Of a DNA stretch of 64,000 nucleotides, positions 5,820-53,413 are shown one piece after another. The first letter of the stretch is position 1, and the number at the start of each line of letters is the position of its first letter. Source of the DNA: an uncultured beta proteobacterium (GTDB lineage: Bacteria > Pseudomonadota > Gammaproteobacteria > Burkholderiales > Burkholderiaceae_C); NCBI GenBank assembly GCA_903905735.1, contig CAIVHU010000231.1:1-64000 (forward strand), given 5' to 3'. A program made the position numbers and the translations under genes. A model generated the notes under the pieces. It was given only the letters and a program-made list of their open reading frames with translations. It had not been told where the DNA came from and made no database searches.

Positions 5820-7202
5820 TTGTCTTCAACCCCACACCACGACACTGACATGACCGAGCTGCCTGGCACTGGTTCTACCGAAGCGGCACCGCCCACAGCC
5901 TTGTTCACCATCTTGTGTGTCGATGACGAGCCGAGCATCCTGTCGGCGCTGCGCCGTTTGTTTCGGGCCAAGGGTTTTCAGGTGCGCGTGGCCGAAGGCG
6001 GTCAGGCCGGGCTGGAGGTGCTGGCCACCGAGCCGATTGACCTGGTGATCTCCGACATGCGCATGCCCGAGATGGATGGTGTGATGTTTCTGGAGCAGGT
6101 GCGCCAGCGCTGGCCAGACACCATGCGCCTGCTGCTGACCGGTTACGCCGATATCACCTCCATCATGGGAGCCATCAACCGGGGCGAGATTTACCGCTAC
6201 ATTGCCAAGCCCTGGGACGACAACGACATCATCCTGATCGTGCGCAGCGCCTTGCAGCAGCGCGCCATGGAACTGGAACAGCGCCGCCTTCAGAAGCTGA
6301 TAGCCGCCCAGAACGAAGAGCTCAAAGTGCTCAACTTCAGCCTGGAAGTCAAGGTCGCCGAGCGCACGGCCGAGCTCAAGCAGACCAACGGCGCGCTGGT
6401 GGCAGCCAACGAGCAGCTCAAAAACAATTTCATCACCTCCATCAAAATATTTACCAGCCTGATCGAGCTGCGTGGCAGCCATCTGGCCGGGCATTCGCGT
6501 CGAGTGGCCGACTTGGCCCGGCGGCTGGCCAACAAGCTGGCTCTGGGCAACAAGTCGGCCCAGGAACTCTTTGTGGCTGGCCTGCTGCACGACATCGGCA
6601 AGGTCGGGTTTGATGACGACCTGCTCAACACCCCGGTGGTGATGCTGACCACGGCGCAGTTGCAGGCTTTTCGCAAACATCCGGCGCGTGCGGCGCAGTT
6701 GCTGTTTCCTCTGCCTGAACTCAAGGGTGCGGCGGAAATCATTGCGGCCCAACTGGAGCGGTTCGACGGTGCGGGTTACCCGGACGCCCTGTTGGGCAAC
6801 AAGATTCCACTCGGTGCCAGGATCCTGCTGGTGGCCAGTGATTACGACAGCCTGCAAATTGGCACCCTGGCGCAGCGCAAGCTGGCCCCATCCAAGTCGC
6901 TGGATGCCATCATCGACGGCAGTGGCAAGCGCTATGACCCTGATGTGGTCAGCGCCCTGGTTGGGTTGATGGGTGATGCGGGGCCGTCTACTGCCGCTGC
7001 GCAGCCGCATGTGGAGACGGTTCGCCAGGTCCGTGACCTGCTGCCTGGCATGGTGCTGGCGCGTGACCTGATCACGCCCAGCGGCCTGCTGATGCTGACC
7101 GCTGGCCACCTGCTGGACGATATGGTGATTGGCAAGATCATGGACTTTGAGCGGTCCATGGGCCTGCATCTGATGGTGGAAGTGGAGCCGGATCGACCAT
7201 GA
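5820..7202 (+). CDS. Response regulator with HD-GYP-like phosphodiesterase domain
   Basis: 460 residues. A REC domain (about 30-150) has the acceptor in LVISDMRMPEMDG and the conserved Lys in YIAKPWDD. A coiled coil (about 150-205) follows. An HD domain (about 215-360) has HSRRVADLARR, LLHDIGKVGFDDD and RFDGAGYPDALLGNKIP. The overall layout is that of RpfG-type c-di-GMP phosphodiesterases, but the usual HHE before RFDG reads QLE, so a metal ligand of canonical HD-GYP enzymes is missing; activity may be lost or altered. The ORF opens with TTG at 5820; ATG at 5850 is an alternative, and neither has a clear ribosome-binding site. It overlaps the next kinase gene by 4 bases (ATGA), so the two are probably translated together. 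Confidence 0.8.
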   Translation: MSSTPHHDTDMTELPGTGSTEAAPPTALFTILCVDDEPSILSALRRLFRAKGFQVRVAEGGQAGLEVLATEPIDLVISDMRMPEMDGVMFLEQVRQRWPDTMRLLLTGYADITSIMGAINRGEIYRYIAKPWDDNDIILIVRSALQQRAMELEQRRLQKLIAAQNEELKVLNFSLEVKVAERTAELKQTNGALVAANEQLKNNFITSIKIFTSLIELRGSHLAGHSRRVADLARRLANKLALGNKSAQELFVAGLLHDIGKVGFDDDLLNTPVVMLTTAQLQAFRKHPARAAQLLFPLPELKGAAEIIAAQLERFDGAGYPDALLGNKIPLGARILLVASDYDSLQIGTLAQRKLAPSKSLDAIIDGSGKRYDPDVVSALVGLMGDAGPSTAAAQPHVETVRQVRDLLPGMVLARDLITPSGLLMLTAGHLLDDMVIGKIMDFERSMGLHLMVEVEPDRP

Positions 7203-14762: not shown

Positions 14763-14810
14763 GGCCTCTAGCCCTTATGCAGCAAGAGCGAGCAGCTACT
14801 TAATTCATAT
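14763..14810 (+). repeat. Dispersed family repeat, intergenic copy
   Basis: It starts GCCTCTAGCCCTTATG and ends with CAGCTA and an AT-rich tail, 6 bp past the NarL-type regulator stop. It matches copies at 17075, 28178 (reverse), 58273 and others in this window. No open reading frame is present. Confidence 0.7.
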
Positions 14811-19858: not shown

Positions 19859-19944
19859 ACCATGTTCAGACATTTGACCCACACGACCTCGAAAGCATTG
19901 ACCAGGCTTTCGGCCCCCACCGTATGGCAGCATGGGAGCTTGGC

Positions 19945-20328
19945 GTGACGCTGCAGATCATGCTGGTGGACGACAACCTGACTTTTCTGGCTTCCGTCAA
20001 AAAAACGCTCAGGCTGGTCGCCAACACACAGGTCGTTGCTGAGGCGCACAACGGCGCGCAGGCGCTGGAGTTGGCGAAACGTCTGAATCCCGACCTGATG
20101 CTTCTCGACATCGTGATGCCAGGTCAGAGCGGTCTTGATGTGGCCAGGGAGATGCAAAGCTGGTCCCGGTCACCACGCGTTTTGTTTTTGTCGATGCACG
20201 ACAACGAGTCTTACCGCACCGCAGCGCAAGCGCTGGGTGCGCTGGGTCTGGTGGGCAAGGCCAACTTTGTCGCCGAGTTGCTGCCCATCATTTCAAACCT
20301 GGCAGCGCAGCCTGGTGAGGTGTCCTGA
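19945..20328 (+). CDS. Single-domain response regulator (CheY-like)
   Basis: About 127 residues consisting of a receiver domain only: acidic pocket MLVDDN, acceptor Asp in [20 protein letters not shown], and the conserved Lys in LVGKANF. It has no output domain. I prefer the GTG at 19945, because GGGAG stands 6 bases before it; the ATG at 19924 would add MAAWELG with no ribosome-binding site. The sequence resembles the receiver half of a NarL-type regulator, so it may be a truncated descendant used as a phosphate sink or kinase partner. Its last base overlaps the next gene (TGATG), tying it to the chemosensory operon. Confidence 0.82.
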
Positions 20329-21482
20329 TGATGCTTCCCTTGCCAAACGATGCCCACAGGTTTTATCCCGCAGCTTGGGGCGTGGTTGCCGCGCTGGTAA
20401 TGGTTTGGATCGGGCAGGCCAGCTTGTTGTCTGTGGGTGCTGCGGTGTTGCTCCTGGCGGGTGCTGTCTTGGTCGGCTGGCTCATGGTCAGACAGGAAAA
20501 GGTCTTGAAACAGGCGGTGGCCGACTATCTGGCGGGCCAGGCCGCTTACAGCCAGCAGGTGGTACCGGTCTGGAACGGCCACATTGAGTCATCGCGCGAG
20601 CAGATGGAAGTCGCCGTCAACGACCTGTCGGAGCGTTTTGGCGGCATTGTTGACAAGCTTGATGCGGCCTTGCGCACCGCCAATCAGGAAACCGATGGTA
20701 TGGACAGCAATGGCAGTGGGCTTGTGGCTGTATTTGCCAAGAGTGAGCAGGAGTTGAGTGCTTTGATCACGGTTCAGGAAACCGCCATGAAGAACCTGGA
20801 GCAGATGCTGACCAAGGTGCAGGGCCTGGACCGCTTTGTGGGTGAACTGCAGGACATGGCCTCTGATGTGGCCCGCATCGCCCAGCAAACCAACCTGCTG
20901 GCCCTGAACGCCGCCATTGAGGCTGCCCGCGCGGGTGATTTGGGCCGGGGTTTTGCCGTGGTGGCCAAAGAGTTCCGTATGTTATCCAACCAGTCCGGCG
21001 ACACCGGGCGCAAGATTGCCGAAAAGGTCAAGGTGATTAGTGCCGCCATTGTGGATACCTGCTCGGCGGTGCGTGAGTCGGTGGTGGCCGAAGACAGCTC
21101 GCTTGAATCAGCGCACACCACCATTGACCGCGTGGTGGCCGATTTCAAGGGCATCACCGAGGCTTTCCAGCGCTCACGCGATGTGCTGCACGGTGAGAGC
21201 CTGAGCATCCAGTCCGAGGTGAACAGCGCGCTGGTGCACATGCAGTTTCAGGACCGGGTGAGCCAGATCCTGACCCAGGTCATCAAAAACATTGCGCGCC
21301 TGCCCGACGTGCTGCAAGACACGCAGCAGACCTTTGCGCAGACCGGTGTGCTCCAGGCGCATGACCCGCAGGAGATGCTGACCGAGATGAAAAAAACCTA
21401 TGTGATGGCGGATCAGCACGTCATTCATGCCGGTGGCAAGGTGGCGCAAAACAGCGGCACCACAGATATCAGTTTTTTCTAG
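20328..21482 (+). CDS. Methyl-accepting chemotaxis protein without a sensor domain
   Basis: 384 residues. Two N-terminal hydrophobic helices (about 15-55) form a membrane hairpin with almost no periplasmic loop. The rest is cytoplasmic signalling domain with the conserved tip ([35 protein letters not shown]). There is no HAMP or ligand-binding domain, so input may come from the membrane state or a partner protein. Such short receptors are common in chemosensory systems that control functions other than flagellar motion (family knowledge; inference for this one). It is tightly packed between the REC gene (overlap) and cheY (10 bp). Confidence 0.85.
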
Positions 21483-21492
21483 AGGACACGCC

Positions 21493-21861
21493 ATGGCCAA
21501 GACCATCATGATTGTTGACGACTCCGCCTCCATGCGACGGGTGGTCGGTATCGCGCTCAAGGGCGCAGGTTATGACGTACTCGAAGGGGTGGACGGCCGC
21601 GACGCCCTGAGCAAACTCACCGGCCAGAAGGTGCACCTGATCATCAGCGACGTGAACATGCCGGTGATGGATGGCATCACCTTCCTCAAAAACGTCAAGC
21701 AGATGCCCGCCTACAAGTTCACGCCGGTCATCATGCTGACCACCGAGTCAGAAGAGTCCAAAAAGCGTGAAGGCCAGTCGGCCGGCGCGCGCGCCTGGGT
21801 GGTCAAGCCGTTCCAGCCTGAGCGGCTGGTGGACGCAGTGCAAAGGCTGTGTCTGCCATGA
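21493..21861 (+). CDS. cheY: Chemotaxis response regulator CheY
   Basis: 122 residues from the ATG at 21493, preceded by GAGGA; the frame extends upstream only as read-through of the MCP gene. Single receiver domain: IMIVDDSASMR, acceptor Asp53 in LIISDVNMPVMDG, TTES, and Lys in WVVKPFQPE. It overlaps the STAS gene by 4 bp (ATGA). With the STAS protein and CheA following directly, this is the probable diffusible output of the kinase. Confidence 0.92.
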   Translation: MAKTIMIVDDSASMRRVVGIALKGAGYDVLEGVDGRDALSKLTGQKVHLIISDVNMPVMDGITFLKNVKQMPAYKFTPVIMLTTESEESKKREGQSAGARAWVVKPFQPERLVDAVQRLCLP

Positions 21862-22169
21862 GCGCGCCCAACGTCTTGAAGATCGATGGCGAGCTGACCA
21901 TCTTTCGCGCCATGGAACTCAAGCCCGTGCTGCTGGCGGTTCCGCCCGTGACCGAGATTGATCTGTCAGGCGTGACCGACCTTGACACGGCCGGTGTGCA
22001 ACTGCTGATGCTGGCCAAGAATACCGCGCTGGCGCAGGGTCGTGACGTGCAGCTCACAGGCCACAGCCCGGCCGTCATTGACGTGTTTGAACTGCTGAAC
22101 GTGGCCGCCTATTTCGGTGACCATCTGGTGATGGATTCGCGCACCCCGGCGGGTGCCGCAAGGAGCTGA
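21858..22169 (+). CDS. STAS-domain protein of the chemosensory operon
   Basis: 103 residues with the STAS pattern of anti-sigma antagonists: EIDLSGVTDLDTAGVQLLMLA, where the usual phosphorylatable Ser is Thr (DTAG). It overlaps cheY at ATGA and ends 1 bp before the cheA start, so it is translated with them. STAS proteins at this position occur in several proteobacterial che operons; the role (phospho-switch partner of CheA or CheY) is not established here. Confidence 0.8.
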   Translation: MSAPNVLKIDGELTIFRAMELKPVLLAVPPVTEIDLSGVTDLDTAGVQLLMLAKNTALAQGRDVQLTGHSPAVIDVFELLNVAAYFGDHLVMDSRTPAGAARS

Positions 22170-22170
22170 C

Positions 22171-24354
22171 ATGGACATGGACGACGCACTGGAGCTGTTC
22201 ATTGTCGAAAGCCGCGAGTTGCTTGAAGACATGGAGACGGCTCTGCTGGCTATTGAAGGCGCAGACGACAAGAGCGAGATGGTCAATGCCATCTTTCGCG
22301 CCGCGCACACCATCAAGGGCTCTAGCGGCCTGTTCAGCCTGGACCATGTGGTGGCCTTCACCCATGTGGTGGAAAGCGTGCTGGACAAGGTTCGCGCCGG
22401 CAAGGTCGAGCTGGATGACAAGCTGGAGGCGCTGTTGCTGACATGCTGTGATCACATTGGCGCATTGATTGATGGTGTTGCTGCCGGGCAGCTGACCCGC
22501 ACGCCCGAAATGCTGGCAAAGGGTGAACCACTGGTGAGCCAGTTGCGGGGTTTCCTCGAAGCTGGCAAGGCAGGTGCCAATGCCACTGGCACCGCTGATA
22601 CGGGCCGCAACGTGCCGACAGCAGATACCGAGCAGGTGCAGCGCATCAGCGGCGACATGGCGCATGCCCACCACTGGCACATCTCCATGCGTTTCGGGCC
22701 GGACGTGCTGCGCAACGGCATGGACCCGCTCTCATTCATCCGCTACCTGGGCACCATGGGCAAGGTGGTGGCCATTGAGACCGTCGCCGACGCGCTGCCG
22801 GATGCCGAACATATGGACCCGGAGCTGTGCTACCTGGGTTTTGAGATGGCGTTCCAGACGGAAGTGGACAAGGCCAAGATCGAGCAGGTGTTTGAGTTTG
22901 TGCGCGACGATTGCCGCCTGGTGATCCTGCCGCCACACAGCCTGATTTCTGAATATGTCAGCCTGATCAACCTGCAGCAGGGCGAACCCGCCCGCCTGGG
23001 CGACATGTTGGTGCGCTGCGGCACGCTCAGTCCGCAAGAGCTGGACATGGCGCTCAACACCCAGGTGGATGCGCCCGATACACCCATTGGCACCATTCTG
23101 GTGGAGCAGGGCTCAGTGCAGCCCGAGGTGGTGGAGGCCGCGCTCACCAAACAAAAGCAGGTCAAGGAAGCCGGTGCTTCCGAAAGCAAGTCCATCCGCG
23201 TGGATGCCGACAAACTCGACCAGCTCATCAATCTGGTGGGCGAGCTGATCATTGCCGGAGCCAGTGTGAACATGATCGCGCACCGCTCCCGAGTGATTGA
23301 GCTCACCGAATCCACCTCCAAACTCGCCACGCTGGTGGAAGAAGTGCGCGACAGCGCCTTGCAACTGCGCATGGTGCGCATCGGTGCCACGTTCAACCGT
23401 TTCCAGCGTGTGGTGCATGACGTGTCGCGCGACCTGGGCAAAGACATCGCCCTGGTGATCGATGGCGAAGACACCGAGCTCGACAAAACCGTGGTTGAAA
23501 AAATTGGTGACCCGCTGATGCACCTGGTGCGCAACAGCATGGACCACGGCATTGAAAGCGCCGAAGTGCGCGCCGCTTGCGGCAAGCCGGTGCAGGGCAC
23601 CTTGAAACTCAATGCGTACCATGATTCGGGGGCCATCGTCATCAGTGTGGAAGACGACGGCGGTGGCCTCAAGCGCGACAAGATTCTGGCCAAAGCCATT
23701 GAACGTGGCCTGGTCGACGCCAACCATCATCTGACCGACACCGAAGTCTATGGATTGATCTTCGAGCCGGGTTTCTCCACCGCCGAGAAGGTGACAAACC
23801 TGTCGGGCCGCGGTGTCGGTCTGGATGTGGTCAAACGCAACATCACCGCGCTGCGTGGCACGGTGGGCATCACCAGCGAAGAAGGCGTGGGCACGATCGT
23901 GACCGTGCGCCTGCCGCTGACCCTGGCCATCATCGACGGTTTTCTGGTGGGTGTGGAGAAATCGGTGTATGCGATTCCGCTGGACATGATTGAAGAGTGC
24001 GTTGCGTATTCGGCAGAGCCGGGCCACGACTACACCAATCTGCGTGGCGAAGTGTTGCCCTTCATCCGCTTGCGTGAGCTGTTTTCGGTGTCTGGCAAAC
24101 CGGCCAAAGGCGAAAACATTGTCGTGCTCAAGCATGCCGGGCAAAAAGCCGGGCTGGTGGTGGACACCCTGTTGGGCGAGTTTCAGACGGTGATCAAGCC
24201 GCTGGGGCAGATGTTTGCCCAAAGCAAATGCATCAGCGGCTCGACGATTTTGGGGAGTGGTGATGTGGCCTTGATTCTGGATGTGCCGTCGCTGGTGCGC
24301 CAGGCCATGGCAAAGAGTGGCCAGGCGCCAGCCGAGCACGCGGTGGTGGCTTGA
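22171..24354 (+). CDS. cheA: Chemotaxis histidine kinase CheA with MshEN-like insert
   Basis: 727 residues from the ATG at 22171, which has AAGGAG 5 bases upstream. Order: HPt domain (His46 in [13 protein letters not shown]), linker, a regulator-binding-type domain (about 169-265), a tandem motif at 275-328, a dimerisation domain (about 335-400), HATPase ([21 protein letters not shown]) and a CheW-like domain (about 585-715). The tandem motif is the unusual part: residues 275-298 fit RLGxxLxxxGxxxxxxLxxxLxxQ exactly, and 305-328 fit it apart from Pro for Arg and two conservative changes. That is the signature of the MshEN c-di-GMP-binding domain of MshE. Enterobacterial CheA has no such segment. 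Function as the central kinase is certain; ligand binding is inference. Confidence 0.92.
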
Positions 24355-24397
24355 GTGTCGGCGGTTTGGTTTGTTCAGTTTTTTCAAGGGGTATGAC

Positions 24398-27300
24398 ATG
24401 TTTGCAAATATGAAGATTGGTGTCCGGCTGGCGGTAGGCTTTGCCGTTACCCTGGTTTTGTTGATTGCCATCGCCGTCGTCAGTTACACGCGGCTGGCAA
24501 CACTCAATCACGAAGTTGAAATTTTGGTCAATGACCAGTTTCCCAAGACCGTGGAGGCTGGCAAATTGGCCGACGCCTTGGCCATTACTGCCCGGCAGTT
24601 GCGCAACGCCTACATCTACAGTGGTGCCGAACAGCAAAAATCGCTGGATGCACTGCCCGAGCAATCGAAGATCATCACCAGCACACTGGAACAGTTGGAC
24701 AAAACCATCACCAGTGACAAGGGCAAAGAATTGCTGAGCAAGGTGAAGTCCGCTCGTGTGGGCTATGTGGATGCACAGGCAAAGACAGTTGATTTGATCA
24801 AGGCAGACAAAAAGGCTGAAGTCGTTGCGCTGATGCAGGGCGATTTGCGCAAAGGTCAGACCGAATACATGGCGACTGTCAACAGCTTGAATGACTACCA
24901 GAATGAACTGGTCAACCAAGCTGGCAAAGATGCCGATGCGCTGGCAACCGCCACCGAAAACATGCTCATCATTCTGGGTATTGTGGCCTCGTTGCTGACG
25001 ATTTTCATGGGTTGGTTCATCACCCGCTCGGTGACTGCCCCTACCCTGAAGATGGTGGCCGGTGCAGACAAGATGGCTGCCGGTGATTTCAACTTCAAAC
25101 TTGACATTGAAAGCAAGGACGAAATTGGCATCCTGGGCAATTCATTCCGTGCCATTCAGACCGCCGTGCAGGCCATGATGGCCGATACCAATGTGCTGAT
25201 CAAAGCTGCCGTGGATGGTCAGCTCGAAACGCGTGCCGATGCCAGCAAACACCAGGGCGACTTCCGCAAGATCGTCGAAGGGGTCAACACCACGCTGGAT
25301 GCCGTCATTGGCCCACTGAATGTGACCGCCAAGTATGTGGACGACATTTCCAAGGGTGTCATCCCGCCCGTTATCACCACCGATTACAAGGGCCAGTACA
25401 ACGTCATCAAGGGCAACCTCAACAACATGGTTAAGATGATGAGCGACTTGCTGGCGCAGACCGACATCATCATCCAGGGCGCTGCCAATGGCGAACTCGA
25501 CAAGCGCGCCAACGCCGACATGTTTGTTGGCGGCTGGAACAAACTGGTGGTTGGTGTGAACGAAACAGTTACCAACATTGTCAACCCACTCAACGTGACC
25601 GCAGATTACGTGGACAAGATCGCCAAGGGGGTCATCCCGCCGGTCATCACCACCGACTACAAAGGCCAGTACAACGTCATCAAGGGCAACCTCAACGCCG
25701 TGGTCAAGATGATGAGCGACCTGCTGGCGCAAACCGACATCATCATCCAAGGCGCTGCCAACGGTGAACTCGACAAGCGTGCCAACGCTGACATGTTTGT
25801 CGGTGGCTGGAACAAGCTGGTGGTGGGTGTGAACGAGACCGTCACCAACATTGTTAATCCGCTGAATGTCACCGCCAAGTATGTGGAAGACATCTCCAAG
25901 GGTGTTATCCCACCGGCCATTACGACCGACTACAAAGGCCAATACAACGTCATCAAGGGCAACCTGAATGCGGTGGTCAAGATGATGGGCGACTTGCTGG
26001 CGCAGACCGACATCATCATTCAGGGCGCAGCCAATGGTGAGCTGAAGAAACGCGCCAATGCGGACATGTTTGTGGGCGGCTGGAACAAGCTGGTGGTGGG
26101 CGTGAACGAAACCGTGACCAACATTGTCAATCCGCTGAACGTGACGGCCGACTATGTGGAACGTATCTCCAAGGGCGACATGCCGCCGAAGATCGTCACC
26201 GTGTACAGCGGAGACTACAACATCATCAAGAACAACCTCAATGCCCTGATTGATGCCACCAACGCGCAGGCTGCAGCAGCGCAAGCCATCTCCAAGGGTG
26301 ATCTCACCACGGTGGTCAATGTGCGCAGCGAGGGCGACATGCTTGCCAAGGCCCTGATTGACGTGACCAAAGCGGTGAACGCACTGGTGGCAGATTCCAA
26401 CGAATTGTCCAAAGCCACTGTCGATGGCAACCTGGCTGTGCGTGCCGATGCCACCAAGCACCAAGGCGATTTCCGCAAGGTGGTGGAAGGCCTGAACGCC
26501 GTGATGGTCGCAGTCAATACGCCGGTGCAGGAACTGCGCGACGTGCTGGGTGCGCTGGAAGGTGGTGACCTGACCCTGTCGATGAAGAAGAACTATGCCG
26601 GTACCTGGGACGAGCTGAAATCTGCCATGACCAACATGCAGAAGAAACTGGTTGAGGTGGTGACCGATGTCAACAGCGGTGCACAGGCCCTGGCCAGCGC
26701 CTCGGAAGAGGTGAGTGCCACCGCCCAGTCGCTGTCGCAAGCCGCCAGCGAACAGGCTGCGGGGGTAGAGGAAACCAGTGCCAGCATCGAGCAGATGACA
26801 TCGAGCATTGCGCAAAACACCGAAAACGCCAAGATCACCGATGGCATGGCCAGCAAGGCGGCCAAGGACGCGGCTGACGGTGGCGAGGCCGTGGAAGCAA
26901 CGGTGACCGCCATGAAACAGATCGCGCAAAAGATTGGCATCATTGACGACATCGCCGCACAGACCAACCTGTTGGCGCTGAACGCGGCGATAGAAGCCGC
27001 CCGTGCGGGCGAGCACGGCAAGGGTTTTGCCGTGGTGGCCGCCGAGGTGCGCAAGCTGGCCGAACGCAGCCAGATTGCGGCGCAAGAGATTGGTGAAGTG
27101 GCCAGCTCCAGCGTGGCACTGGCCGAAAAAGCCGGTCGGCTGCTCAACGAGATCGTGCCCAATATCCGCAAGACATCTGATCTGGTGCAAGAGATCACCG
27201 CAGCTTCCACCGAGCAAAGCAGTGGCGTGGGCCAGATCAACTCGGCGGTGAGCCAGCTCAACACCACCACGCAGCAAAATGCCTCCAGCTCTGAGGAACT

Positions 27301-27526
27301 GGCAGCCACCAGCGAAGAGATGAGCAGCCAGGCTGAACAGCTGCAGCAAACCATGTCGTTCTTCAAGCTTGATAGCGCCTCACAGGGCCGAAGCGTGCAG
27401 CATCAGGTGCGCAAGAGCAGTGCCAGCAGCGGCAAGGCACCCAAGCCAGCAGCCACGCGACCCACCCAGAGCCATGCCATGGCCAGCTCTGACGACCTGG
27501 ATGAATCCCAGTTCACCAAGTTCTAA
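24398..27526 (+). CDS. Methyl-accepting chemotaxis protein with tandem poly-HAMP array
   Basis: 1042 residues from the ATG at 24398 (AAGGGG 6 bases upstream). TM1 (about 7-29), a four-helix-type periplasmic domain (about 30-190), TM2 (about 190-212), HAMP, then a long run of HAMP-like modules including three nearly identical 91-residue units (from [15 protein letters not shown]; residues about 306-578) and a fourth diverged one. The signalling domain follows, with its tip [25 protein letters not shown]. Poly-HAMP relays are known in soluble and membrane receptors (for example Aer2). The recent-looking unit duplication is notable. The C-terminus ends in an acidic [11 protein letters not shown]; a methyltransferase-binding pentapeptide is not evident. 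It precedes cheW by 12 bp. Confidence 0.9.
25313..26131 (+). repeat. Three tandem 273-bp coding repeats
   Basis: Units 25313-25585, 25586-25858 and 25859-26131 each encode 91 residues starting PLNVTA and ending TNIVN, with only a handful of amino-acid differences. A diverged fourth unit starts at 26132. The period is exact, so copy number can change in frame by recombination. Confidence 0.9.
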
Positions 27527-27538
27527 CAGGAGCCGACC

Positions 27539-28090
27539 ATGAACGCATTGGTCAAAGCTGACAAAAAGGGCTTGGGCAACCAGGTAGCGTCCCAGGCGGC
27601 GGTGGAGGAAAAGCAGTACCTCACCTTCATGCTGGGAGGCGAGATGTTCTCCATCAGCATCCTCAGCATCAAGGAAATCATCTGGTACGCCAACCTGACC
27701 GAGGTGCCGATGATGCCCGCGTGTATTCGCGGCGTGATCAACCTGCGCGGCGCGGTGGTGCCGGTGATGGACTTGTCCAACCGCTTTGGCAAGCCGAGCA
27801 CCCCGGTGATCAAGAGCACCTGCATCGTCATCATCGAGGTGCCCACCGCTGTGGAAGGCGAGCACCAGAACATGGGTGTGGTAGTTGATTCGGTGCAGGC
27901 AGTGCTGGAGATTCCCACCTCCGAGATCGAACCCGCACCGAGTTTTGGTGCCAAGATACGGCCCGATTTCATAGAAGGTATTGCCAAGGTCAACGGCAAG
28001 TTCGTCATCCTGCTCAACGTCAACCGGGTGCTCTCCACCGAAGAGATCAGCCAGATGGGGCAGGTGACAGGAACCGCAGAAGGGATGTGA
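27539..28090 (+). CDS. cheW: Chemotaxis coupling protein CheW
   Basis: 183 residues with a CheW/SH3-like fold: QYLTFMLGGEMFSISILSIKEII near residue 24, IRGVINLRGAVVPVMDLSNRFG near 62, and a final DFIEGIAKVNGKFVILLNVNRVL. It couples CheA to the receptors. It is slightly longer than E. coli CheW (about 167) because of an N-terminal extension. AGGAG stands 6 bases before the ATG. It lies 12 bp downstream of the poly-HAMP receptor; a dispersed repeat separates it from cheR. Confidence 0.93.
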   Translation: MNALVKADKKGLGNQVASQAAVEEKQYLTFMLGGEMFSISILSIKEIIWYANLTEVPMMPACIRGVINLRGAVVPVMDLSNRFGKPSTPVIKSTCIVIIEVPTAVEGEHQNMGVVVDSVQAVLEIPTSEIEPAPSFGAKIRPDFIEGIAKVNGKFVILLNVNRVLSTEEISQMGQVTGTAEGM

Positions 28091-28117
28091 GTTGACGCAC
28101 AGCGGCAGCTGGTAGCC

Positions 28118-28178
28118 ATATAAAATAGATAGCTACCCGCCCCTTCCAAATAAGGGCTAGAGGCTAAAAAAGCATATA
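28118..28178 (-). repeat. Dispersed family repeat between cheW and cheR
   Basis: On the reverse strand it reads GCCTCTAGCCCTTATTTGG ... TAGCTATCTATTTTATAT. It fills most of the 100-bp gap and could form structure in the transcript. It is oriented opposite to the copies at 14763 and 17075. Confidence 0.75.
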
Positions 28179-28190
28179 AATATTCAGGGA

Positions 28191-29006
28191 GTGATCTTGC
28201 AGGCCATTGCCATCACCGACGCCGAGTTTGCCCAGTTTCAGCGCTTTATTTTTGAGGCGGCGGGCATCTCCATGGCTGATGCCAAAAAGGCGCTGGTCAC
28301 CGGGCGCTTGGGCAAACGGCTGGCCGCGCATGGGCTGGAGAGCTTTGGCGCTTATTTCAAATTGTTGAAATCCGGCCTGCACCCGGCTGAGGCGCAGATG
28401 GCAGTGGACCTGCTCACTACCAACGAAACCTATTTCTTCCGCGAGATCAAACACTTCGAATTCTTGCGCACGCAGGCGCTGAAGGAGCGCAGCCGCCCCC
28501 AACCGTTTCGGGTGTGGAGCGCGGCTAGTTCCAGCGGTGAAGAGGCCTACAGCATGGCCATGGTGCTGGCAGACTGCATGCAAACCACGCCGTGGGAAAT
28601 ACTGGGCACCGACATCAGCACCCGCGTCATTGACGGCGCGCGCAAAGCGCTTTATTCGATGGAGCGCGGTCGTCACATTCCGCCTGAGTTTTTGAAGCGT
28701 TTTTGCCGCAAGGGTGCCGGACCCTACGAGGGGCAATTGCTTGTGGAGCGCAGCCTGCGCAGCAAGGTGACGTTTCGCCAGGTGAACCTGAATGCTGCAA
28801 TGCCCGAGCTGGGTCAGTTTGACATGGTTTTTTTACGCAACGTGATGATTTACTTTAACAACGACACTAAGCGTGAAGTCGTGGCGCGGGTGATTGCCAC
28901 GCTCAAGCCGGGCGGCTACTTTTGTGTCGGCCATTCCGAGAGCCTCAATGACATCACCCAGGCGGTAAAGATGGTGGCACCGGCCATTTACCGCAAGGCG
29001 CTCTGA
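28191..29006 (+). CDS. cheR: Chemotaxis protein methyltransferase CheR
   Basis: About 271 residues: an N-terminal helical domain (FQRFIFEAAGISMADAKKAL) and a SAM-binding domain (RVWSAASSSGEEAYSMAMVL; LGTDISTRVIDGARKALY; MVFLRNVMIYFN). It methylates receptor glutamates, opposing CheB. The start is ambiguous: GTG at 28191 has AGGGAG overlapping it, whereas TTG at 28197 has AGGGAG 5 bases upstream and may be the true start. It is followed after 1 bp by cheD. Confidence 0.92.
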   Translation: MILQAIAITDAEFAQFQRFIFEAAGISMADAKKALVTGRLGKRLAAHGLESFGAYFKLLKSGLHPAEAQMAVDLLTTNETYFFREIKHFEFLRTQALKERSRPQPFRVWSAASSSGEEAYSMAMVLADCMQTTPWEILGTDISTRVIDGARKALYSMERGRHIPPEFLKRFCRKGAGPYEGQLLVERSLRSKVTFRQVNLNAAMPELGQFDMVFLRNVMIYFNNDTKREVVARVIATLKPGGYFCVGHSESLNDITQAVKMVAPAIYRKAL

Positions 29007-29007
29007 C

Positions 29008-29541
29008 ATGACCCGCCTGAAAGACCTGATGGACATCTTCCTGCAGCCCGGCGAGCTGTTTGTGGGCGATGCCGCCTTTCAGATTCGCACCATTCTGGGT
29101 TCGTGTGTGTCGATCACGCTGTGGCACCCGCAGGCGTGCATCGGTGGCATGTCGCACTTTTTGTTGCCAACCCGTTCCGAGGCGGTGCCGGGGCAGGTGC
29201 TGGACGGTCGTTATGGCGACGAGGCCTTGCAATGGATGATGAAGGATTTAAAGGCCGCCGGGGTCAACCCGAAACAGTGTCAGGCCAAGATTTTTGGCGG
29301 TGGCAACATGTTTCCGGGGCAGACGCGGGCGACGGCCATCACGGTGGGCCAACGAAACGGTGAGGCGGCGCGACTGCTGCTGCAAAACGAGGGCATCGAG
29401 GTGGTCAGCGAGAGTTTGTTTGGTGTGGGGCACCGGCAAATCATTTTCAACGTCAGCAATGGCGATGTCTGGATGCGCCAGGTCCGGCCGTCACAATTTG
29501 AAGTTGCTGCTGAAACGGCAGTCGGAGGATGCGCAACATGA
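29008..29541 (+). CDS. cheD: Chemoreceptor glutamine deamidase CheD
   Basis: 177 residues with the catalytic Cys33 ([13 protein letters not shown]) and His50 (GGMSHFLLP) and the conserved KIFGGGNMF. CheD deamidates receptor glutamines and, in some bacteria, interacts with CheC/CheX-type phosphatases; no CheC, CheX or CheZ gene is seen in this window. It overlaps cheB by 4 bp. Confidence 0.93.
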
Positions 29542-30605
29542 GCCGAATCAAAGTGCTGGTGGTGGATGATTCTGCGGTGGTGCGCCAGGTGGTCACCAGC
29601 CAGCTCAGCGCGGACCCCGAGATTGAGGTCATCGCCGCCGTAGCCGACCCGATTCTGGCGATCGCCCGCATGAAGGTGCAATGGCCGGATGTGATCGTGC
29701 TTGACATCGAAATGCCGCGCATGGATGGCATCACCTTCCTGAAAAAGGTCATGGCAGAGCGACCTACGCCGGTGGTGATTTGCTCAACATTGGTCGAGTC
29801 GGGGGCGCAAACCTCGATGGCAGCCCTGGCTGCTGGCGCGGTCGCGATCATTGCCAAGCCCAAGGTGGGGCTCAAACAGTTTCTGGAAGATGCCTCCCAA
29901 GACATGGTGACTGCCGTCAAGGCCGCAGCCAAGGCCAATGTCAAGGCGCTGCATGTCTCGGTCAAAAACACGGCGGACGTGATCATGCCTGCTGCCGACA
30001 AACACAGCGCCATGATCCAGACCACCGAGCGGGTGGTGGCCATTGGCACCTCAACCGGCGGCACGCAAGCCCTTGAAGTAGTGCTGACCAGCCTGCCACG
30101 CGTGACACCGGGCATGGTCATCGTGCAGCACATGCCAGAAAAGTTCACCGCCGCGTTTGCCCAGCGGCTCAACAGCCTGTGCCAGATCGAGGTGAAAGAG
30201 GCGCAGAACAACGACCGCGTCATCAACAGCCGCGCCTTGATTGCGCCGGGTGGCAAACACATGCTGCTGCGCCGCACCGGCGCGCAGTATTACGTGGAGG
30301 TGATGGACGGCCCGCTGGTGAACCGGCACCGCCCGTCGGTCGATGTGCTGTTCCGCTCGGTGGCCAAATGCGCCGGGGCCAACGCGCTGGGGGTGATCAT
30401 GACCGGCATGGGCGATGACGGCGCGGCGGGGCTGCTGGAAATGCGCAAGGCAGGTGCCCGCACGGTCGGGCAGGACGAAGCCAGTTGCGTGGTGTATGGC
30501 ATGCCCAAAGAGGCGGTCAAGCGTGGCGGCGTCGAAAAAAGCGTGCCACTGAACGCGATTGGCCGCGAGATCATGCAGCAGCTTTCAGGCGTGATGGTGC
30601 GCTAG
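29538..30605 (+). CDS. cheB: Chemotaxis methylesterase CheB
   Basis: 355 residues from the ATG at 29538 (GGAGG 9 bases upstream; the ATG at 29529 has none). Receiver domain with Asp56 ([13 protein letters not shown]), linker, and a methylesterase domain with Ser172 ([10 protein letters not shown]), the catalytic His in IVQHMPEKF and the Asp in GMGDDGAAG. It demethylates and deamidates receptors when phosphorylated by CheA. It is the last che gene of the operon. Confidence 0.94.
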
Positions 30606-30656
30606 CCGCCGCTGTTGCAGTTCGCACAGAATTGAAGTCGTTGTTGGAGAAAAATT

Positions 30657-31040
30657 ATGTCGATCGAATGGAAAGACAGCTACAAGCTGGGTGATGCCAA
30701 GCTTGACGCCCAGCATCAGCATTTGTTTGATCTGGCCAGGAAGATTCTGGCAGCAGATGATGTGGCTACCGTCAAAGGGCTGGCGCTGGCACTTTACAAG
30801 CACACCCGGATTCATTTTGAGGACGAAGAAGGCCTGATGCGTCAGCACGGCTACCCAGGTCTGGAAGCGCATATCGAATCGCATTACCGGCTGCTGGGGC
30901 GGCTCAATACCTTGAGTCAGGATATTGGTAAAGGCAAGCTCGACAAGCCAGCATTGGATGCATTGATGGCCGACTGGGCCATGTTCCACATCCCGCTGGA
31001 CGATGCGCGCTTTGAGACTTTTTTGAACCCTGCTGCCTGA
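30657..31040 (+). CDS. Bacteriohemerythrin
   Basis: 127 residues, a single hemerythrin domain with every di-iron ligand: His20 (DAQHQHLF), His53 and Glu57 (HFEDEEGLM), His72 and His76 (HIESHYRLL), His111 and Asp116 (FHIPLDDARF). Stand-alone bacteriohemerythrins carry or sense O2 in microaerobic bacteria. It lies 51 bp after cheB in the same direction and probably belongs to the chemosensory operon. Together with the hemerythrin kinase at 9904 it supports an oxygen theme for the region. Confidence 0.9.
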   Translation: MSIEWKDSYKLGDAKLDAQHQHLFDLARKILAADDVATVKGLALALYKHTRIHFEDEEGLMRQHGYPGLEAHIESHYRLLGRLNTLSQDIGKGKLDKPALDALMADWAMFHIPLDDARFETFLNPAA

Positions 31041-51661: not shown

Positions 51662-53413
51662 ATGAATCAGGCCGTGACTTCACCAACCGCAGCAGTTTCA
51701 CCCTCCTTGCCGGGTCGCCCTGAGAAGCTGCGGCTGGGCGACGTGCTGGTGCAGCAGCGCCTGATCTCTCAAGAGCAGTTGCAGCAAACGCTGGTGCTGC
51801 AGAAGCAGACCGGTAAGAAGATGGGCCGCCTGCTCATTGAAACCGGGCTGATCACTGAAGAGCTGTTGGCCAATGGTCTGGCGCGCCAGCTACGGATTCC
51901 TTTCGTCAACCTCAAAACCTTCCCGTTTCGTGCCGATGTGGTCAAGCTCCTGCCGGAATCCGCCGCGCGACGTTTCCGCGCCCTGGTGCTGGAAGACAAA
52001 GGCGACATGCTTCTGGTGGCGCTGGCTGACCCGCTGGACCTGTTTGCGTATGACGAGCTGACACGGTTGCTCAAGCGGACGATTTCCGTTGCGGCAGTGC
52101 CTGAGAGTCAGCTTGCATTGGCATTTGACAGGCTCTATCGCCGCACTGAGGAAATCAGTGGCTTGGCCCGTGCCTTGGAAAAAGATCTGGGTGACGCGGT
52201 TGACTTTGGCGAACTCACCGCCAGTGTCGGCACTGAGGGCGCACCCGTGGTGCGGCTGTTGCAGTCGCTGTTTGAAGATGCCATGCAGGTGGGGGCATCC
52301 GATGTGCACATTGAGCCGCAGGAATCCGGCCTGCAGATTCGCGTGCGGGTCGATGGTGTCTTGCAAACCCAAACCCAGGCCGACAAGCGCATTGGCGGTG
52401 CCTTGGCGCAGCGACTCAAACTCATGGCCGGACTGGACATTTCTGAAAAACGCCTGCCGCAAGATGGTAGATTCAGCGTGCGCCTGCGAGACACCACGAT
52501 CGATGTCCGGCTTTCGACTTTACCCACGAATTACGGTGAATCTGCTGTCATGCGCCTGCTCAAACAAGGTGCGGGCATGAAGCAGCTGGATGACATTGGC
52601 ATGCCAGCCGAGATGCTGCGGCGGTTCCGTGAGGTGATTGGTCGCGTCTCGGGTCTCGTGCTGGTGACCGGCCCGACAGGTTCGGGCAAAACGACCACGC
52701 TGTATGCGGCCCTGTCTGAAATCAATGCGACCGAGCTCAAGGTCATCACGGTCGAAGATCCGGTGGAATACCGCATGCCTGGCCTGACTCAGGTGCAGGT
52801 GAACGACAAGATTGACCTGAGCTTTGCGCGTGTGCTGCGCGCTTGTCTGCGCCAGGATCCGGACGTGATTCTGGTCGGTGAGATGCGCGACGAAGAAACG
52901 GCTGAAATTGGCCTCAGGGCCGCCATTACCGGGCATCTTGTGCTATCAACTTTGCATACGCGGGATGCGATGAGCACACCTTTCCGGTTGCTGGATATGG
53001 GCGTGCCACCCTTCATGGTGGCGACCTCTTTGCAGGCCGTGATCGCTCAACGGCTGGTGCGGCTGAACTGCCCCGAGTGCAACCAGCCTCACCAACCCAC
53101 GCCGCAAGAGCTGTCCTGGCTGGCAGGCATGGTCGATGATGTCGGCACGGTGGTCTCCATGCGAGGGCGAGGTTGCTCGTCTTGCAATGGCACCGGTTAC
53201 GCGGGCCGCCAAGGCGTGTATGAGTTGCTTGAGATGGACGCTGCGCTGACCCAGGCCGCGTCCCGCTCTGACCCGGCGGCTTTCATGAGGCTCGCGCGTG
53301 AGCGCATGAAGGGCTACACCCTGTCTTTTCATGCGCTGGAACTTGTTCGCCAAGGGCGCACCTCGCTGGCCGAAGCCTTGCGCATCGGTTTTGACGTGGA
53401 AGATCTTGACTGA
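51662..53413 (+). CDS. mshE: MSHA-type pilus assembly ATPase MshE
   Basis: 583 residues. The N-terminal MshEN c-di-GMP-binding domain has two 24-residue motifs at 24-47 (RLGDVL ... LVLQ; Arg replaces the usual Gly) and 53-76 (KMGRLL ... LARQ), separated by 5 residues as in Vibrio MshE. A GspE-type ATPase follows: Asp-box GASDVHIEP, Walker [13 protein letters not shown] near 337, VEDPVEYRMPG, LSTLHTRDA, and a C4 zinc site (CPEC ... CSSC). It powers pilin polymerisation when c-di-GMP is bound (family knowledge). It is the first gene of the pilus locus, with mshG 20 bp downstream. Confidence 0.9.
   Translation: MNQAVTSPTAAVSPSLPGRPEKLRLGDVLVQQRLISQEQLQQTLVLQKQTGKKMGRLLIETGLITEELLANGLARQLRIPFVNLKTFPFRADVVKLLPESAARRFRALVLEDKGDMLLVALADPLDLFAYDELTRLLKRTISVAAVPESQLALAFDRLYRRTEEISGLARALEKDLGDAVDFGELTASVGTEGAPVVRLLQSLFEDAMQVGASDVHIEPQESGLQIRVRVDGVLQTQTQADKRIGGALAQRLKLMAGLDISEKRLPQDGRFSVRLRDTTIDVRLSTLPTNYGESAVMRLLKQGAGMKQLDDIGMPAEMLRRFREVIGRVSGLVLVTGPTGSGKTTTLYAALSEINATELKVITVEDPVEYRMPGLTQVQVNDKIDLSFARVLRACLRQDPDVILVGEMRDEETAEIGLRAAITGHLVLSTLHTRDAMSTPFRLLDMGVPPFMVATSLQAVIAQRLVRLNCPECNQPHQPTPQELSWLAGMVDDVGTVVSMRGRGCSSCNGTGYAGRQGVYELLEMDAALTQAASRSDPAAFMRLARERMKGYTLSFHALELVRQGRTSLAEALRIGFDVEDLD

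Follow-up and report, generated by a model that had tools for sequence, protein, structure and literature searches.

The ATPase MshE of Vibrio cholerae (PDB 5htl) has an MshEN_N half, built of two tandem 24-residue motifs with a spacer of 5 residues between them, and an MshEN_C half. The Arg at the start of each motif stacks on guanine and the backbone amides of Gly-3 contact guanine, and ligand contact is the published role of Gly-3 and Gln-24 in MshEN motifs (PMC5013675). A change of Gly-11 in MshE abolishes binding, while MshEN_N alone (residues 1-62) binds at 0.35 uM, and a basic patch of Lys5, Arg7 and Lys8 precedes motif 1 (PMC5013675). The published motif also demands hydrophobic residues at position 11, and in the looser motif that Wang et al. 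used for searching, the first position may be R, K, P or N (PMC5013675).

PilF, a pilus ATPase of Thermus thermophilus, has three regions of this type. GSPII-B, with Lys and Leu and no Arg at its motif starts, binds at 6 nM, and the authors assign the weaker site, of about 460 nM, to GSPII-C, which has Pro at position 1 of its second motif (PMC11731258). GSPII-A, one motif of which is degenerate, shows no binding, and small changes can block binding (PMC12002112).

CheA has been described as a kinase lacking its own sensor domain (PMC10782961). The auxiliary domains named in the survey of CheA proteins by Berry et al. (2023) are P2/CheY-binding, CheY-like and CheC/CheX, and its main text, when searched, contained no instance of MshE, T2SSE, c-di-GMP or DUF4388 (PMC10782961). 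The association of MshEN with CheA is not new: it has been in print since 2016, when Wang et al. named CheA and CheX among MshEN-associated proteins, and the accessible text of that paper does not say that any CheA was tested (PMC5013675). Among the papers listed by literature searches, in which few subscription journals were covered, none describes in its title or abstract opening the binding of c-di-GMP to a CheA MshEN domain.

The CheA described here is encoded in a stretch of 64,000 nucleotides (the window) from an uncultured beta proteobacterium. A sequence-only reading of the window had noticed an MshEN-like tandem motif in it and proposed a possible c-di-GMP input into the kinase. Like MshE, this CheA has two tandem 24-residue motifs, but only the first starts with Arg, the spacer is 6 residues and there is no MshEN_C half. 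The second motif starts with Pro, as does that of PilF GSPII-C (PDB 6f8l; motif 2 PLGEILVELGLARPEDVEEALQKQ), where the spacer is 7 residues; unlike CheA, GSPII-C has three motifs and is part of a pilus ATPase. As judged from published descriptions of gene sets, the gene cluster around cheA is similar in content to the Shewanella oneidensis Che1 cluster, which includes an anti-sigma antagonist (PMC9855816), and to the F7 stage 1 cluster (PMC7184735), and differs from both in gene order.

The cheA gene and its insert

The gene encodes a complete CheA, with the Pfam Hpt, H-kinase_dim, HATPase_c and CheW domains all over their cut-offs. The stretches AAHTIKG, NSMDHG, DDGGG and GRGVGLD, which we take to be CheA catalytic motifs, were all found. 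The residue numbering 275-328 for positions 22993-23154 presumes the ATG at 22171 as the start. The features of the gene, and the MshEN_N domain of the MshE also encoded in the window, are as follows.

22171..24354, + strand: cheA, 727 residues from the ATG at 22171
22153, + strand: alternative GTG start of cheA, adding 6 residues
22186..22458, + strand: P1 (Hpt) domain, residues 6-96 (PF01627, 64 bits)
22672..22950, + strand: P2-like region, about residues 168-260 (from position, sequence and alignment only)
22993..23064, + strand: MshEN_N motif 1, residues 275-298 (translation, NF053729 and motif count)
23065..23082, + strand: spacer between the motifs, residues 299-304 (alignment of 87 CheA proteins)
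23083..23154, + strand: MshEN_N motif 2, residues 305-328 (translation and NF053729)
23155..23193, + strand: linker to P3, residues 329-341 (alignment of 87 CheA proteins)
23185..23364, + strand: P3 dimerisation domain, residues 339-398 (PF02895, 48.7 bits)
23509..23922, + strand: P4 kinase domain, residues 447-584 (PF02518)
23938..24303, + strand: P5 CheW-like domain, residues 590-711 (PF01584)
51731..51889, + strand: MshEN_N of the window MshE, residues 24-76, the reference copy (NF053729, 63.3 bits)

The insert lies between the P2-like region and P3, which is where it had been placed, between a regulator-binding-type and the dimerisation domain; the P2-like region takes its name from its position, and the Pfam scan reported no P2 match. 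Residues 275-298 fit all eight fixed positions of the simplified motif used in the sequence-only reading, as claimed there, and are the sole 8/8 match in a six-frame scan of the window; the two motif copies of the window MshE score 7/8 and 6/8. Residues 305-328 form the imperfect second copy that had been described, with 5/8 fixed positions and the stated spacer of 6. The fit to the full published motif is partial. Copy 1 has the eight simplified positions, but position 11, which should be hydrophobic, is Thr in copy 1 and Ser in copy 2. Copy 2 departs further at positions 1, 2 and 17, and with Arg at position 1 of the first motif and Pro at that of the second, CheA does not have Arg, Lys or Leu at both motif starts.

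Identity of the insert

The NCBIfam model NF053729 ('cyclic di-GMP-binding domain-containing protein, MshE-related', c-di-GMP_motif, 53 positions) describes a general domain and is not specific to CheA. Run against the whole of the window CheA it matched residues 275-328 with 39.0 bits, over a cut-off of 38, and the isolated segment scored 45.8 bits. In the whole-genome search the two halves in the window CheA were scored separately and summed to 45.6 bits. All 74 members of alignment A1, a MAFFT alignment of CheA proteins with the insert, matched the model at E <=0.001.

The searches in the other direction gave the same picture. A profile made solely from CheA inserts found PilF as its best match in the PDB (stretch 302-360, 47.3 bits, in GSPII-C), together with PilB and MshE (34.8 bits for 5htl). 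In genomes its matches showed a score gap, from 3.7e-15 to 8.9e-12, after which further proteins appeared, and several of these non-CheA matches sit directly before PF05157 matches. Aligned with hhalign, A1 matched 13 motif-bearing PF05157 proteins (12 and the window MshE) with a probability of 98.8% and an E value of 1.4e-16, against a probability of 8.3% for 16 degenerate PF05157 proteins. Profile tests in both directions, together with the conserved ligand-contact positions described below, uphold the earlier identification, and CheA 275-328 is almost certainly an MshEN_N domain. It is expected to fold as a four-helix bundle.

The Pfam model named MshEN (PF05157), which had been suggested as the check, is misleading here. 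It has no match in CheA up to E 10, because the model starts after the two motifs and covers the neighbouring half of MshEN. In the window MshE it matches residues 77-163, while the two motifs lie at 24-76. We fetched 30 proteins with a PF05157 match, lost one (L140) to a contig end, and sorted the 60 residues preceding the match by eye in the other 29: two recognisable motifs were present in 12/29, a degenerate version in 16/29 and neither in 1/29 (L127). PF05157 was dropped as the deciding test for the CheA insert. Scans that rely on Pfam may miss a stand-alone MshEN_N domain, as the half that PF05157 leaves out is the one with the c-di-GMP-binding motifs.

Other models also touched the insert. 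DUF4388 was rejected as its identity, with 21.3 bits against a cut-off of 25, and the similarity was taken as a shared half motif of the LGxxL type. The model of NfrB, a c-di-GMP-activated glycosyltransferase with a different output from CheA (NF008411), matches 20/74 CheA inserts, and another glycosyltransferase model, NF012033, matches 64/74. The EpsG tyrosine kinase model TIGR03029 (NCBIfam) matches 9/74, with the window insert aligned to model positions 2-29, which raises the possibility that EpsG contains half an MshEN-type motif.

Conservation of the motifs and the linker

To sample CheA we took 122 loci, of which 116 had CheA-like best matches, and aligned 102 proteins that were 640 residues or longer. 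Before alignment, one window copy and four paralogues lacking the insert were set aside. A second window copy, L026, L029, L036, L072 and L097 (no alignable insert), and ten near-copies or gappy rows were dropped after it, leaving 86 rows and the window CheA (n=87).

All 87 proteins keep Gly-3, Gly-10, Leu-17, Leu-21 and Gln-24 in motif 1 and Gly-3, Ala-19 and Gln-24 in motif 2, in a count whose pattern assumed Gly-3 of both motifs and the Gln of motif 2 and which 0 rows failed. The MAFFT alignment A1, with 74 of the 87 rows, has the same invariant columns for Gly-3 and Gln-24. Arg-1 of motif 1 is kept in 71/87, and position 11 of that motif is Thr, Ala or Ser in 82/87. Motif 2 keeps Ala-20 in 86/87, Leu-21 and Lys-23 in 84/87 each and Val-17 in 79/87. 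All of the motif 2 counts are to be read with the way in which the named loci were found: they come from among the matches listed by a scan with six peptide patterns, one of which, TKQKQVKE, extends into the end of motif 2, and this may favour rows that keep the motif. The turn residue Gly-10 of motif 2 is kept in just 34/87, and position 1 of this motif is Pro in 54 proteins, Lys in 13, Gln in 9 and Arg in 3. Mean entropy is 0.45 bits at the published contact positions and 1.58 bits at the others (p 0.0004), with some structural positions as conserved as the contacts.

The degenerate PF05157 domains (n=16) have lost these residues, with Gly-3 present in 1/16 first motifs and 0/16 second motifs and Gln-24 in 0/16 of either; as they were chosen for motif loss, they show that loss occurs in the family and not how often. 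These sixteen proteins (L130, L133-L138, L141, L143-L146, L148-L150 and L152) are taken to be PilB-type ATPases and are presumably non-binding. The motif-bearing PF05157 rows have Gly-3 in 13/13, and position 24 of their second motif is Gln in 7/13 and Lys in 6/13.

The spacer between the two motifs varies from 5 to 28 residues across the 87 CheA proteins. The distance from Gln-24 of motif 2 to the IRV-type stretch of P3 is 13 residues in 81/87, 14 in five and 15 in one. A freely moving domain needs no such near-fixed linker, and this near-constancy suggests mechanical coupling of the insert to the dimerisation helices.

In two CheA proteins the motifs are frayed or gone. Variovorax sp. N23 (L097) has a frayed motif 1 and no motif 2, and a Comamonadaceae MAG (L072) has neither; the remainder of the protein aligns in each.

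Distribution of the domain

The genome from which the window comes has 6 places with a P3 domain, and the insert is present in two of them, the window CheA and a second CheA on contig C259, which has a partial NF053729 match of 20.9 bits, below the cut-off. With filters off and at E 1, the A1 profile found nothing in the frames of the other four P3 places, three of which extend past the locus examined. A whole-genome search with the same profile at E 0.001 gave three matches in this genome, two of them the window CheA and the C259 CheA. The flagellum-linked CheA on contig C49, about 5 kb from the FliM and FliN genes, is without the insert. The C259 CheA (L188) adjoins chemoreceptors with PAS-HAMP and zinc-binding (CZB) domains and a CheW-receiver protein.

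CheA-type matches to the A1 profile, the window genome included, were found in at least 19/276 genomes of the class (at least 27 places, E up to 3.7e-15), at least 56/300 of the order (at least 61 places, E up to 3.3e-13) and at least 10/299 of the phylum (at least 12 places, E up to 3.9e-14), and all are lower bounds, as about 20 candidates were scored per genome and inserts that are weaker or partial do not reach these limits. The phylum count excludes five genomes outside the class with matches from 4e-13 to 7e-11. For comparison, 179/276 genomes of the class have any P3 domain. CheA-type matches are those in long frames that are separated in score from other proteins, many being judged by frame length only; 18 loci (L154-L171) were confirmed as CheA against the window protein, and further loci likewise when the tree was made.

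A quick, unrooted tree of the kinase core was made with 88 of 145 rows and with the insert left out. Insert-bearing CheA proteins group together: a supported branch separates 79 domain-bearing rows, four rows that lack the domain and L097 with its frayed remnant from the four other kinases of the window genome. Six changes are needed on this tree. It has long branches (L161, L006 and L001), and as most of its rows were picked for similarity to the window CheA or the insert profile, CheA without the domain is under-sampled. The simplest reading would be one early gain of the domain and several losses.

Does the domain bind c-di-GMP?

From the conserved contacts and the described relatives, we think it likely that the CheA MshEN_N domain binds c-di-GMP. 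The absent MshEN_C half is no obstacle, because the isolated MshEN_N of MshE binds. The earlier reading had warned that loss of the second Arg could abolish binding. This concern is weakened by the precedents of PilF GSPII-C and GSPII-B, yet Pro at position 1 of motif 2 is common in degenerate relatives too (10/16). As GSPII-C has three motifs, its binding cannot be credited to the Pro-bearing pair, and it provides a precedent rather than a proof. No evident counterpart of the basic patch before motif 1 of MshE is seen in the aligned CheA proteins, in which this stretch is often acidic.

The best explanation of these patterns, in which we have reasonable though limited confidence, is that MshEN_N in CheA binds c-di-GMP and adjusts phosphorylation in the array through P3. 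One c-di-GMP would most likely bind between the two motifs, and the binding state would be passed through the short linker of fixed length to P3. The intracellular level of c-di-GMP would thereby tune how strongly the array phosphorylates its CheY partners. Taken by itself, an effect of c-di-GMP on CheA kinase activity is plausible, and we lean slightly towards it. The wider proposal is that c-di-GMP directly gates the CheA of a beta- and gammaproteobacterial array subfamily, so that receptor signals and messenger would be weighed in one kinase, with output to CheY and perhaps to a STAS partner-switch protein; for this we put the chances at about even. Were the domain to bind c-di-GMP, the chemosensory kinase itself would be the target of a second messenger, an effect that could be tested in one purified protein.

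The fold might instead have been kept as a structural or docking module, for the STAS protein, CheW or a receptor for example, after c-di-GMP binding was lost, the fixed linker then reflecting array geometry. Several features are consistent with this. The Arg of motif 2 is mostly replaced by Pro, and Ala-19, Ala-20 and Lys-23 of that motif are conserved beyond the published motif, as they would be for an added interface. Related domains can be silent, as in PilF GSPII-A (PMC12002112), and 70/71 named loci have a STAS homologue upstream of cheA. Against it, the ligand-contact residues Gly-3 and Gln-24 of both motifs are invariant in 87/87 proteins, and the 16 degenerate and presumably non-binding homologues keep the domain's place in the protein almost entirely without them. 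We regard this reading as rather unlikely. The same invariance of the guanine-contacting Gly-3 (PMC5013675) makes a ligand other than c-di-GMP, for instance some other cyclic dinucleotide, improbable, although the departures from the motif are systematic, with position 11 of motif 1 affected in 82/87 and Val-17 of motif 2 present in 79/87.

The CheA-LID domain, which tethers arrays to the cell pole in species with ParP and ParC, occupies the same place, between P2 and P3 (PMC7534058; PMC5706961). A comparison by position and neighbouring genes found no second CheW-like protein and no ParA-type ATPase among ten proteins scanned at 19924-31037, and with three profile tests identifying the insert as MshEN_N, we consider an identity with CheA-LID very improbable. 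The motif is short and degenerate, and a chance resemblance of linker helices has to be weighed as well. Against it, shuffling the CheA protein gave an 8/8 match in 0/20,000 trials and two tandem copies that each reached 5/8 or better in 10/20,000, the contact residues recur in 87/87 aligned CheA proteins, and NF053729 is over its cut-off. Chance is refuted for practical purposes. The reading that we prefer remains that of a c-di-GMP-binding domain acting on P3.

Gene neighbourhood

The chemosensory genes around cheA, from a scan of the cluster, are as follows.

21427..21861, + strand: CheY-like response regulator
21849..22169, + strand: STAS-domain protein, directly upstream of cheA
24395..27526, + strand: chemoreceptor with a 4HB sensor, HAMP and five HAMP_2 domains
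27539..30605, + strand: cheW, cheR, cheD and cheB

A CheY homologue lies upstream of cheA in 67/71 named loci, and in the other four cheA has a contig end no more than about 1.1 kb away; these loci, like the count of STAS homologues above, come from a set selected for likeness to the window CheA, and the C259 CheA has other neighbours. The STAS neighbour hints at a partner-switch output of the array.

The sequence-only reading had also pointed to c-di-GMP-related genes elsewhere in the window, and all three are present: a REC-PAS-GGDEF-EAL protein at 14810, which is the GGDEF-EAL protein claimed; a protein with REC and HD_5 domains at 5820, which is the HD-GYP relative; and MshE at 51662, with its NF053729 match. 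A GGDEF-EAL homologue was found in 4/71 named loci, with flanks of at most 4 kb; as the window copy is over 5 kb upstream of cheA, out of reach of such flanks, this count decides nothing about a conserved link.

Two further observations concern the receptors of the cluster. A protein of 384 residues with a partial MCP signalling domain is encoded at 20328-21482, upstream of the CheY gene, and its homologues recur upstream of cheA in many of the named loci. In the chemoreceptor gene that follows cheA, positions 25312-26245 are a tandem repeat of 273 bases (3.4 copies, 83% matches) that encodes the HAMP_2 stretch, which suggests a recent HAMP duplication in this chemoreceptor.
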